The notes beneath the pieces are model-generated. The model saw nothing but the letters and a program-made list of their open reading frames with translations, did not search any database and had not been told where the DNA came from. The position numbers and the translations under genes are program-made. Of a stretch of 64,000 nucleotides of DNA, positions 12,528 through 15,472 are shown in pieces. The DNA comes from Mucilaginibacter cryoferens. GTDB taxonomy: Bacteria; Bacteroidota; Bacteroidia; Sphingobacteriales; Sphingobacteriaceae. The stretch covers positions 170,779 through 234,778 of the forward strand of contig NZ_JACHCR010000010.1 in assembly GCF_014205845.1 (NCBI RefSeq). The letters are read 5' to 3'. Every line of letters begins with the position of its first letter. The first letter of the stretch is position 1.

Positions 12528-13505
12528 TTAGTTAAAATATTCGCGTTGATATTTATTACGGTAATCCATAGGGGATAAGCCGGTAATGCGCTTAAAAGTA
12601 GTGCGAAATGCTTTATTATCGGTATAGCCAACATTGTACATTACCTCATTTACATTATCACGTGAGGTTTCCAGGCTTGCTTTGGCGGCTTCTATTTTTA
12701 CACGTTGAATATACTCGGCTACGGTATTGGCTGTTGCTTTTTTAAACCGACGTTCCAGGTTTCGCCTGCCTAAAGCAAACATAGATGCCAGCTGTTCTAC
12801 ACTTATTTTCTCCTGGTAGTTTTTCTCAATAAATTCCTGCGCTTTTTTTATTGGATCATCGCTATGGTCTTTTTGTCCCTGGAAAATTATAAATGATGAT
12901 TGACTGGTGCGCTCCATTTCAATAGCAAATACTTTAGAGCTTAGAATAGCCATGTCCCTGCCTGCAAATTTTTCTATAAGGTATAATATAAGATTAAGGT
13001 AAGAGAAGGCACCTCCACTGGAGTAAATACCCTGCTCGTCGGTAATTATTTTTTCGGTTACCAGGTTAACATCCGGAAACATGGTTCTGAATTGATTGGC
13101 TGCCATCCAATGTGTAGCGCAGCTTTTTCCTTTCAATAAACCGGTTGAAGCCAACAGGAAGGCCCCCATGCATAAACTGGCTACTTCTGCACCGTTGTTA
13201 TATTGATCTGTTATCCAGGGTAAAAAGGCCTTGTTGTTTTCAATAGCAGCCGTTATTTCGCCGTCAAGTGCGGGGATGATGATGAGGTCGGTTTTTTTTA
13301 AATCGGAGATCAATATATTGGAGTTTACGGTGAAGCACCCACCGCTGATAGTAGTCTCTTTAGTTAGCCCAACCAATTCTACGTTAAAAACGGGCTCTTT
13401 TCCCATTGATAGAACAAACTGGTTTACCTGGGTCAACAACTGGCGAGACCCTTCAAGACTACCTAAAATTGCACCTTTGGGTACTAAAATGGATATATGC
13501 TTCAT
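12528..13505 (-). CDS. GlxA-family regulator (DJ-1/PfpI-like plus AraC)
   Basis: A 325-residue protein. Residues 1-190 form a class I glutamine amidotransferase-like DJ-1/PfpI domain, with the nucleophile-elbow region VASLCMGAFLLASTGLL followed by CATHW. Residues about 220-320 form an AraC DNA-binding domain (ISVEQLASMFALGRRNLERRF, and NVNEVMYNVGYTDNKAF then FKRITGLSPMDYR). GlxA-type proteins are transcription activators whose DJ-1 domain is usually non-enzymatic and ligand-binding. A good promoter lies directly upstream, with its -7 box ending 4 nt from ATG 13505. Target genes are unknown; the next genes downstream are on the same strand, 83 bp away. Confidence 0.85.
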   Translation of the reverse strand: MKHISILVPKGAILGSLEGSRQLLTQVNQFVLSMGKEPVFNVELVGLTKETTISGGCFTVNSNILISDLKKTDLIIIPALDGEITAAIENNKAFLPWITDQYNNGAEVASLCMGAFLLASTGLLKGKSCATHWMAANQFRTMFPDVNLVTEKIITDEQGIYSSGGAFSYLNLILYLIEKFAGRDMAILSSKVFAIEMERTSQSSFIIFQGQKDHSDDPIKKAQEFIEKNYQEKISVEQLASMFALGRRNLERRFKKATANTVAEYIQRVKIEAAKASLETSRDNVNEVMYNVGYTDNKAFRTTFKRITGLSPMDYRNKYQREYFN

Positions 13506-13509
13506 ATCT

Positions 13510-13537
13510 CAAAAGTATAATAAAGCATTATTGCAAA
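13510..13537 (-). promoter_or_regulatory. Promoter of the GlxA-type gene
   Basis: Read on the minus strand, TTTG (13537-13534) and TACTTTTG (13517-13510) are 16 bp apart, a good Bacteroidota -33/-7 pair. The -7 box ends 4 nt before the start codon, so the transcript would have little or no leader. Confidence 0.55.
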
Positions 13538-14264
13538 CAATATTTGTTTTGTAAACTACTTACCGGGCAACCTTATAACCCCCTCAAACGGCTAATAAAA
13601 GTATTTAAGTGATAATAAAAGTACATCTACCGTAAATAGTATTTGGCATGCCCGTAATTTAACCTATTACTTAATTTCGCTGATGGAATTTAAGAATTGG
13701 CAGTGTTTTGGTATGCTTTTTTAAGATTTTTTGTCAGGTTATTGAGGTTTGTCATGCTTGGTGACAAAATGGCAAAAAAAATATTAAACTGTTAAGGGTT
13801 TTAAAAATGAGCTAATGAAGTTGTATTTCTCTGTAAAAAGCAGAAAATGAGCTTTGTTTTGAGTTCTAACTCCCTCTTTTTATACTAATCGACTATTTTG
13901 CGGTAATAAAATCTGGGATTTTTAATATTGACAGTATTTTTAATCAACAAATTGTAAGATTTTTTTAAACTGATTTTTTCTACTGACTAAAAAAGGTTTA
14001 TTTTTTTTATCTCTTCTAAAGTGTCGTCATTTTTTTTCAAATCAACCTTCAATTTTTATCTATTACAAAATATGGCAATTTTATTTTTTTTGGGTTTTGA
14101 GTATCGCAACCTCCAATTTTTTATGGCATGTTTTTAGTCGATTCCCGTTCAGGAAACCGAAGATGTCTATCACTTAGTCCCATAAAAATCAGGGTATTAT
14201 ACGATGAATAGCGGGCTTCCCTCAAGCTATTAATAATATATAAATCACTTAAAAAATTAAAACT
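13538..14264. other. Long AT-rich gap before the microprotein genes
   Basis: About 730 bp with no convincing ORF longer than a few dozen codons. It is full of T and A runs (for example around 13970-14100) and contains no obvious tRNA, rRNA or transposase remnant. Its size before three tiny genes makes it a candidate for a long 5' leader or a small RNA, but I see no defined structure that proves either. Confidence 0.4.
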
Positions 14265-14345
14265 ATGTTAGTCGTATTAGAAGTTGCAGCCTTTTTAGCA
14301 GTTATCATTTTGCCTTTAATTCCAGCTAAAAAAGTTGCGAAATAA
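14265..14345 (+). CDS. Tandem membrane microprotein, copy 1 (26 aa)
   Basis: A 27-codon ORF starting MLVVLEV, followed by a continuous hydrophobic stretch (AAFLAVIILPLI) and ending PAKKVAK. It is one short membrane helix with a single acidic residue (Glu6) near the start and a basic tail (Lys22, 23, 26). Copies 2 and 3 repeat it at 136 and 264 bp downstream with only aliphatic exchanges, so translation is strongly implied. The leader AATCACTTAAAAAATTAAAACT is shared in part with copy 2 (AATCACTT..AAAATTAAAA). No known family is recognised; the size and shape recall single-helix type I toxins and other bacterial membrane microproteins. Confidence 0.75.
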   Translation: MLVVLEVAAFLAVIILPLIPAKKVAK

Positions 14346-14400
14346 TTAGGGCTGTGTACCAGTAATAATAATCAAATAATCACTTTAAAAATTAAAAACC

Positions 14401-14481
14401 ATGTTAATCGTATTAGAAGTTGTCGCATTTTTAGCAGTTATCGTTTTGCCTTTAATCCCGGCTAAAAAAATTGCAAAATAA
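14401..14481 (+). CDS. Tandem membrane microprotein, copy 2 (26 aa)
   Basis: A second 27-codon ORF, starting MLIVLEV and ending PAKKIAK. Compared with copy 1 it differs at residues 3 (V to I), 8 (A to V), 15 (I to V) and 24 (V to I), all hydrophobic swaps. Codons 9, 19, 20 and 25 differ silently. This pattern of conservative and synonymous change is what selection on a protein leaves. It starts 55 bp after copy 1 stops, with an A-rich leader very like that of copy 1. Charged residues E6, K22, K23 and K26 and prolines 17 and 20 are unchanged. Confidence 0.75.
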   Translation: MLIVLEVVAFLAVIVLPLIPAKKIAK

Positions 14482-14528
14482 TTAAAGTATCGTAACAGAT
14501 ATTTCAGTAATCATTAAAAGATAAGATC

Positions 14529-14609
14529 ATGTTAATTGTATTAGAAGTTGTTGCCTTTATAGCAGTTATCATTTTGCCTTTAGTTCCGGCTAAAAAGGTT
14601 GCAAAATAA
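14529..14609 (+). CDS. Tandem membrane microprotein, copy 3 (26 aa)
   Basis: A third 27-codon ORF, starting MLIVLEV and ending PAKKVAK. Relative to copy 2 it changes residues 11 (L to I), 15 (V to I), 19 (I to V) and 24 (I to V). E6, P17, P20, K22, K23 and K26 are retained. It starts 47 bp after copy 2 and is followed 29 bp later by a hairpin terminator, so the three genes look like one transcription unit. Its leader (AATCATTAAAAGATAAGATC) has diverged more than those of copies 1 and 2. Confidence 0.75.
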   Translation: MLIVLEVVAFIAVIILPLVPAKKVAK

Positions 14610-14638
14610 CTCAGGGATATTACATTTAGTTGTAATCG

Positions 14639-14672
14639 AAGATGGATAGCATGGAGCTACCCATCTTTTTTT
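14639..14672 (+). terminator. Terminator of the microprotein unit
   Basis: AAGATGGATAGC (14639-14650) pairs with GCTACCCATCTT (14656-14667), one A-C mismatch, loop ATGGA, then a run of T. It lies 29 bp after the third microprotein gene and supports one polycistronic transcript on the plus strand. Confidence 0.75.
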
Positions 14673-14698
14673 GTTTAATGGGTTAGGTATTAAAATGA

Positions 14699-15472
14699 TT
14701 ACTGCAACTGTTTTTGCATAAGGCGCGCTTTGCCGGTGATTTGGATTTTAGCCGCGCTGTCTACCTGCAGGGCATTAAAATGTTGCACAGGGTGTTCATC
14801 AATATTAAGGCTGCTTTTACCTTTAAGCGAATAATTAAGGGTACTAACGTGGTTGTTTTTCCAGATATTTAAATAAGAGCTATCTGCAGCGGTAATGTTT
14901 AAATATTTGATAGAAAGATTATTAACATCGTAATGGCTCTGATCGGCAACAGTGAGTTTCAAAGAGTCGGTGCTGCCTGGGTTGTTTCCAATAGTAACCT
15001 TGGCAGAGTTAGCCCTAATCGATGAAACATTATTTGCCGAGATCCTTACAATATCACTCTCGTTATTCCAGTTTCTTACAGAGTTATCATATTTACTCTT
15101 TACACTAAATGAAATAAATAGCGTATCGTTTTTTACCGTTGTTATAAGATTGCTTCGTAATTCCTTAATAACGCTTATTGTATTACGGCTACCGGTATTC
15201 GTTTTTTCATCGTTGTGACCCACCCAAACCCTGGCCATCCACATCCAGGTTTCGAAACCACCGTCTACCGGGATTTTTAATGAGCCATCGATAACAATAT
15301 GTTTAAAAGCGGGTAATTGGGCAATGGGAATATAATCCAGAGTATTCTTCGGGTATAGATCCCTGTAGAAATTTCCGTTATTGTATTCGTTTTTTAGCAG
15401 CAGGTTGTAGGCTAGTAACGATACTGGTATGCATGTAAAAAGTATGATGATTAATTTTGTGCTGGTTTTCAT
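14699..15472 (-). CDS. Exported protein with GIN-like beta-helix region
   Basis: A 257-residue protein with an N-terminal membrane or signal segment (LIIILFTCIPVSLLAYNLLL) and a C-terminal run of short strands (SLKLTVADQSHYDVNNLSI, KYLNITAADSSYLNI, STLNYSLKGKSSLNI). That run resembles the putative adhesin head GIN domain (DUF2807), though the match is weak. It is last in the operon ATPase, permease, GntR, this gene, starting 19 bp after GntR. It could be an envelope sensor or accessory factor of the ABC transporter. The function is unknown. Confidence 0.55.
   Translation of the reverse strand: MKTSTKLIIILFTCIPVSLLAYNLLLKNEYNNGNFYRDLYPKNTLDYIPIAQLPAFKHIVIDGSLKIPVDGGFETWMWMARVWVGHNDEKTNTGSRNTISVIKELRSNLITTVKNDTLFISFSVKSKYDNSVRNWNNESDIVRISANNVSSIRANSAKVTIGNNPGSTDSLKLTVADQSHYDVNNLSIKYLNITAADSSYLNIWKNNHVSTLNYSLKGKSSLNIDEHPVQHFNALQVDSAAKIQITGKARLMQKQLQ

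Follow-up and report, generated by a model that had tools for sequence, protein, structure and literature searches.

Three near-identical open reading frames (ORFs) of 26 codons stand in tandem on contig C10 of the 6.95-Mb genome of Mucilaginibacter cryoferens, a member of a genus of soil bacteria, and raise the question of whether they are real genes and, if so, when their peptide is made and what it does. Annotation mostly misses proteins of fewer than 30 residues, and the initial annotation of these ORFs had likened them to tandem type I toxin genes. We have examined them in a 64-kb window (the whole stretch of DNA that was analysed; coordinates below are those of the window) and by comparison with related genomes. 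The features of the locus are as follows.

12528-13505, minus strand: AraC/DJ-1-type regulator gene, one flank of the gap that holds the ORFs
13762-13774, plus strand: TGACAAAATGGCA, 13-bp enhancer-like element and putative upstream activating site, from comparison of relatives
14124-14139, plus strand: sigma-54-like -24/-12 promoter box TGGCATGTTTTTAGTC, of the pattern TGGCA[TC]N7G
14140-14264, plus strand: 5' leader of a presumed tricistronic transcript, conserved in close relatives
14265-14345, plus strand: copy 1, MLVVLEVAAFLAVIILPLIPAKKVAK, 26 aa, ATG start
14401-14481, plus strand: copy 2, MLIVLEVVAFLAVIVLPLIPAKKIAK, 26 aa, ATG start
14529-14609, plus strand: copy 3, MLIVLEVVAFIAVIILPLVPAKKVAK, 26 aa, ATG start
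14638-14668, plus strand: hairpin with a T-run, probable terminator (fold of 14620-14675, -17.1 kcal/mol, z -4.1)
14699 onward, minus strand: gene for a DUF2807 protein, then GntR and ABC-transporter genes, the other flank

Three tandem ORFs conserved as peptides

The three ORFs are the sole genes of a 1.2-kb gap, and their positions, their ATG starts and their periods of 136 and 128 bp are as initially annotated. Comparison of the copies likewise bore out the six conservative variable positions (3, 8, 11, 15, 19 and 24, with V/I/L/A exchanges throughout) and the six invariant residues (E6, P17, P20, K22, K23 and K26). Each pair of copies is separated by five synonymous and four non-synonymous differences, which corresponds to a pN/pS of 0.25-0.26. 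Across relatives the pooled ratio is 0.36 (770 pairs with pS < 0.6, from the first 20 codons of 49 distinct coding sequences, which represent 56 genes at 48 loci); the same 49 sequences have diversities of 0.26, 0.11 and 0.46 at codon positions 1, 2 and 3, and in the +2 shifted frame the ratio is 1.65. The earlier claim of selection on translation is upheld by these ratios. M1, V4, L5, E6, V7, A12, I14, P17 and L18 are kept in all 15 aligned members. Over residues 2-19 the hydropathy of the copies is 2.9-3.1 (Kyte-Doolittle), a value at which they would count, by sequence, among short hydrophobic peptides in the sense used for type I toxins.

Homologues, for which a search had been advised, were found in other genomes of the genus, with E-values down to 3.5e-8 for the 26-mer; this single query had matches at E<=1 in 19 of 60 relatives. 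A 15-row profile matched 117 of 149 Mucilaginibacter genomes at E<=1 and 73 of them at E<=1.9e-8. With the same profile 102 of 301 genomes of the family sample matched at E<=1, those with E < 0.05 only in Mucilaginibacter and two g26 genomes; the order sample gave 28 of 250 at E<=0.01, confined to two of 16 genera, and the phylum sample four of 345, including a partial match (E 0.003) in a distant genome. In the samples searched, Mucilaginibacter and a single sister genus account for nearly all occurrences of the family. Loci from named records come from Mucilaginibacter in 24 of 28 cases and from Bacteroidetes MAGs in the other four. Two or three close copies occur in eight genomes among the matches listed (G000, G020, G072, G074, G077, G128, G156, G165), and the neighbours of the short gene differ, with no conservation in the 19 stretches compared. 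The 48 short-class loci used throughout were hand-picked from the fetched loci and represent part of the 73 positive genomes; the near copies L008 and L050 and the overlapping or refetched L001, L002, L021, L022, L068, L071, L074 and L075 were left out.

The peptide went unrecognised at the outset, and the 26-mer has no Pfam or NCBIfam match at E<=10, in searches whose filters may miss short queries. A search of Rfam with 13400-14800 returned six matches at E<=5, none at gathering score, and a literature search found nothing on this family of micro-membrane peptides in Mucilaginibacter.

The hairpin at 14638-14668 was missed by a simple terminator scan, which found none in the gap, perhaps because its stem contains a 1x1 mismatch. 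Sigma-70-type promoters are not in excess in the gap (5 versus 5.9 in shuffles); one of the five, a weak match on the antisense strand (14225-14196), is oriented away from the ORFs. The A-rich leader that had been described as shared is indeed present for about 20 nt 5' of each ATG, but the promoter-like box precedes copy 1 only, and the internal copies have no box of their own. Because there is one upstream promoter-like box and one final hairpin, a single transcript is likely, as had been supposed. The locus is most likely a single transcription unit for three copies of a predicted single-pass inner-membrane microprotein, within an overall explanation that we rate at slightly better than an even chance.

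A long stable 5' leader hairpin occurs in L005 and L006, and other loci lack it or differ; in L007, L049 and L051-L053 a leader hairpin is seen by predicted fold only. As a universal RNA element the leader hairpin was rejected, since z is below -2.5 in only three of nine leaders and is -0.13 in the window.

A sigma-54-like promoter box before the short genes

The pattern TGGCA[TC]N7G lies 52-154 nt 5' of the first ATG in 47 of the 48 short-class loci, and the single locus without it has just 81 nt of upstream sequence. Over both strands of the 48 loci (282,594 nt) the pattern has 82 matches, the 47 promoter boxes included. PMC12316311 gives the sigma-54 promoter consensus as TGGCAC-N5-7-TTGCT. 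The GG of the -24 element is present in all 47 loci with enough upstream sequence. The -12 half has its G in 47 of 47, as the pattern demands, while its C is frequently T or A, and it mostly reads TAG[TC] or GTG instead of TTGC. The DNA-binding domain of sigma-54 (rpoN) is encoded in all 20 genomes tested, and M. cryoferens itself has 13 matches to sigma-54-type enhancer-binding proteins (EBPs), eight of them strong. Together with the distal element described below, the box looks like sigma-54 and EBP control. Literature searches found nothing relevant on Mucilaginibacter and sigma-54, and few papers on sigma-54 in this phylum.

A stricter box pattern matches the M. cryoferens genome at four places, versus eight for a reversed control, so that this count proves nothing alone. 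The four places are the present locus, the sequence before L109 (a paralogue, see below), the sequence before an ORF at L110, and the inside of a coding gene (L111), the last of which we take as chance. The ORF at L110 (C6:80946, minus strand) has 54 codons, begins 27 nt from the start of its sigma-54-like box and is followed by hairpin-like sequence; it is possibly another unannotated sigma-54 micro-gene. In addition, a TG[TG]CA-like word with the look of a decayed box occurs 13 times among 46 loci at -194 to -196, about 195 nt 5' of the box.

A distal element at a nearly fixed distance

A 13-mer of the form TGNCAWWWTGNCA, with at least 10 of 11 fixed positions, is found 352-379 bp upstream of the -24 box in all 46 testable loci, the pattern having been derived from the very loci used for this count. 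The count required at least 900 nt of sequence 5' of the box, for lack of which L012 and L018 were dropped. The distances fall at -361 to -366 in 31 loci, at -370 to -376 in 12 and at -352/-353 in two, with one at -379; the -370 to -376 group is about one helical turn further away and the -352/-353 pair about one turn nearer. The element is a conserved block in an alignment of 12 relatives, and several loci have a second copy of the 13-mer near -437. In the window, the element at 13762-13774 overlaps an inverted repeat, TTGTCA-N7-TGACAA (13749-13767). With at most one mismatch, TGACAAAWTGNCA occurs once in the window against 1.36 expected by chance, so that this single site would be insignificant without the comparison across loci. 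The exact form TGTCA-N5..8-TGACA is present in 30 of 46 loci (shuffle mean 0.03), and the density of TGTCA/TGACA is 34.2 per kb at -460 to -341 versus 1.7 in the remaining upstream 900 nt. The conserved 13-mer has what is expected of an upstream activator site of a sigma-54 gene, and we regard it as a putative one.

T-tracts recur at fixed distances in the spacer between element and box. Intrinsic curvature of this spacer was considered and not adopted: spectral peaks lie near 10-10.75 bp, and since others lie at 12.25, 13 and 16 bp the reading is only suggestive. The form TTGTCAN5-9TGACAA was also rejected as a regulon marker; it occurs at seven places in the M. cryoferens genome and at six in the reversed control, and the six places other than this locus resemble an interspersed repeat. 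These TTGTCATTGCGAGTGACAA-like inverted repeats, at C1:549525, C3:1009, C3:409729, C4:287059, C27:13356 and C34:8811, are probably just that.

Kdp operons and longer paralogues

The same box pattern stands before kdp operons. In five of eight kdp loci (L163, L165, L170, L171 and L172) a TGGCA[TC]N7G box, for example TGGCATTCGCTTGG or TGGCACAGGCTTAGC, has a TATCAAAATGATA-like palindrome 101-103 bp above it, a count that depends on the pattern, the stricter form being found in one of six loci; by inspection L168 has a similar box-palindrome spacing. The -12 halves of the kdp boxes read TTGG[TC] in four loci and TTAGC in one. The neighbouring regulator of the kdp operons of the genus is a sigma-54-type EBP. 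Pfam confirmed KdpA and KdpC in L096 and L163 and KdpD in L096, and KdpB was confirmed by its P-type ATPase domains. In M. cryoferens there are two kdp loci, and its three kdp-type EBPs form one cluster. The short-class 13-mer and the kdp palindrome are of equal length and have the core CAAAWTG in common; their outer bases differ, and the distance to the box is greater in the short class (~360 bp) than at kdp operons and long paralogues (~100 bp). Since TGACAAATTGNCA of the short class and TATCAAAATGATA of kdp are not identical sites, one EBP need not bind both.

The profile also retrieved longer paralogues of about 59-71 aa, which have the same helix followed by a tail that is often N-x-x-G-[YF]-LE; in some of them (L100, L105, L108) the Glu is replaced by Lys. 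A Pfam search with four of them at E<=10 gave only a below-cut-off Saf-pilin match (E 0.0039), with the same caveat about short queries. The long class comprises 21 loci (L089-L109), which reduce to 16 distinct peptides, five being repeated or missed by the search pattern. The box precedes 13 of the 16 distinct genes (background 7.4%), leaving three without it, and a T..CAWWWTG..A element is present at 12 of 16 (background 6.4%), leaving four without a site; in eight of these 12 the element is paired at 22 bp, and the nearer one lies 91-101 bp above the box. L109 (M. cryoferens C1:131301, minus strand), a 71-aa paralogue absent from the profile list, was retrieved by the promoter pattern alone; it starts 106 nt from where the box begins.

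A kdp-type EBP gene is found in 10 of 20 long-paralogue loci, and nine of 20 lie away from kdp-type genes. A long paralogue stands with a kdp-family EBP in G000, G027, G067, G072, G077, G155, G083 and G022, accompanied (as tested in G000) by genes for a beta-barrel porin, an M20 peptidase and a GNAT acetyltransferase. In G163 and G016 it stands with both a kdp-family EBP and kdp genes, and in G019 it comes immediately after a KdpD-type gene and one for a histidine kinase.

The EBP at the C33 kdp locus of M. cryoferens (at least 72% identity) was found in all 11 genomes examined that have the short gene and in none of the nine that lack it. This strict co-occurrence in 20 genomes was weakened by the exceptions among 149, where 65 genomes have both, eight the short gene only, 13 the EBP only and 63 neither (67, 13, 11 and 58 when seven weak short matches are added). 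This is a strong association with exceptions, and it is no independent test, because the genomes are related and it is confounded with clade. In six of 11 loci of the C33-type EBP, kdpA lies within the fetched 16 kb.

In the kdp loci L096 and L100 a separate, KdpF-like ORF of 25-26 aa lies directly 5' of kdpA. The long class was considered as KdpF and rejected, the place before kdpA being already taken by this other ORF. Just 5' of the KdpF-like ORF a further micro-ORF, of 27-30 aa and with FEKI at its end, was seen in kdp loci, at the following positions.

L096, 8582-8665: FEKI-ending micro-ORF
L100, 9689-9772: FEKI-ending micro-ORF
L163, 10260-10352: FEKI-ending micro-ORF

Alternative explanations

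The toxin analogy of the initial annotation would make the peptide a membrane-active type I toxin of the Ldr/Ibs/Zor kind, which depolarises the membrane and is restrained by an RNA antitoxin. Its size, hydrophobicity, Lys-rich C-terminus and tandem copies are compatible with this; PMC8309996 includes helical peptides of 19-35 aa among type I toxins and ascribes the discovery of ZorO to a search that took in tandem small hydrophobic proteins. The search for an antisense antitoxin, which had been advised, was run as a scan for the sigma-A-like consensus TAnnTTTG, reported for Flavobacterium in PMC9723704; other promoters and trans-encoded RNAs are beyond its reach. On the antisense strand of the 48 loci it matched once, against a mean of 17.1 (range 9-27) in 100 dinucleotide shuffles and a single-base estimate of 12.6, so that opposite the gene there is hardly a trace of a sigma-A-like promoter; the sense strand gave 13 versus 20.8 in shuffles. 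Ldr, Ibs and Zor of Escherichia coli are likewise very short hydrophobic helix peptides, some of them in tandem. Unlike them, the present ORFs appear to form one transcript from an activator-type promoter, in which no promoter-like box precedes the internal copies; the peptide is conserved across the genus together with its activator-type control region, and plasmid and phage collections gave no match at E<=1 with one 26-mer query. The sequences do not support the toxin reading, which we consider rather unlikely. That the peptide serves the Kdp pump as an accessory subunit, or stands in for KdpF, is more doubtful than that. KdpF, the small subunit of the KdpFABC K+ pump, is short and single-pass; the peptide is similar in length (~26 aa), in its predicted single pass and in its apparently kdp-related control, and long paralogues adjoin kdp genes in G163, G016 and G019. 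Against this, its sequence differs from that of KdpF and the 26-mer matches no Pfam family at E<=10, the short class lies outside the kdp operon and is unlinked to kdp, and a separate KdpF-like ORF precedes kdpA in L096 and L100. An RNA that acts by itself, with the ORFs incidental, is very improbable: some leaders fold strongly (z -5.2 in L005, -2.8 in L006, -2.6 in L019), but the pooled pN/pS and the codon-position diversities speak for a peptide, the window leader does not share this folding, and L003, L062 and L063 have much shorter leaders.

The TGGCA box might also be read by a sigma factor other than sigma-54, as the deviation of its -12 half from TTGC could suggest. However, the same pattern lies 101-103 bp below the kdp palindrome in loci with a sigma-54-type EBP and stands before 13 of 16 long paralogues, and distal activator-like elements are characteristic of sigma-54; we judge this alternative improbable, a little more so than the toxin and less so than KdpF. 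Known sigma-54/EBP regulons resemble the present case in their -24 element, EBP genes and upstream palindromes, and differ from it in that here the -12 half is mostly TAG[TC] or GTG, the activator site is nearly fixed at ~360 bp and the target is an orphan micro-gene. A feedback peptide that acts on the sensor kinase of the two-component system inducing it, as MgrB acts on PhoQ, would be a special form of the explanation we prefer, with a hypothetical partner. The kdp-type EBP gene in 10 of 20 long-paralogue loci, the position of the G019 gene directly after those of a KdpD-type protein and a histidine kinase, and the distinct upstream-site variants of the paralogues are in its favour, and we regard it as unlikely in this specific form, though less so than the alternatives above. 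Small membrane regulators of the MgrB/AcrZ type are stress-induced, and the peptide, compared with them by description only, is alike in being a small, predicted single-pass protein that may act on the response by which it is induced; it differs in its apparent sigma-54 and EBP control, its occurrence in Bacteroidota and its tandem copies.

A model for the locus

The explanation that we prefer is a sigma-54-dependent locus for a single-pass microprotein, driven by a Kdp-type EBP. We infer that K+ shortage or osmotic stress would be the signal, read by a KdpD-type sensor kinase, and that a Kdp-type EBP would bind at 13762-13774, about 360 bp upstream, and loop to the sigma-54 promoter at 14124-14139, over a distance constrained by helical phase. 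Transcription would yield a tricistronic RNA that ends at about 14668. Three copies of the single-helix peptide would insert in the inner membrane with the Lys-rich C-terminus in the cytoplasm, the tandem copies giving a higher dosage. The helix, together with the conserved E6 and PLxP, may bind a partner in the membrane, a transporter or the response's own sensor kinase being the likeliest candidates, and so adjust the partner's activity; these two partners are preferred because the paralogues sit with such genes. An enhancer distance of 360 bp is long and speaks against this explanation, which, taken as a whole, we find marginally more probable than its negation.

More tentatively, and with distinctly less confidence than we give the locus itself, several sigma-54/EBP circuits of Kdp descent may run in parallel in Mucilaginibacter, with one family of micro-membrane proteins as their output. 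Every paralogue would depend on its own variant of a 13-bp enhancer with the CAAAWTG core, the 26-aa branch would have its enhancer at about 360 bp only in distances that helical phase permits, and the product would tune a membrane sensor or a transporter.

Implications

Two things are added here to the initial annotation: the control region, and the existence of longer paralogues that neighbour kdp-type regulators. A conserved control region, beyond the ORF itself, argues for a real gene and predicts when it is made, and because it predicts the conditions of expression the function of the peptide becomes directly testable. The control DNA suggests that the gene and the emergency potassium pump are induced by regulators of one kind. 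On our best reading, which we hold with a little more belief than doubt, the peptides would be an undescribed family of sigma-54-induced micro-membrane proteins within a Kdp-like stress response. With so many natural pairs of enhancer and promoter, at quantised distances, these loci could serve to study long-range sigma-54 enhancer action. If parallel circuits of Kdp descent do exist, they would represent a new family, a new wiring of micro-proteins and, for phased enhancer looping in bacteria, an unusually clean natural case.
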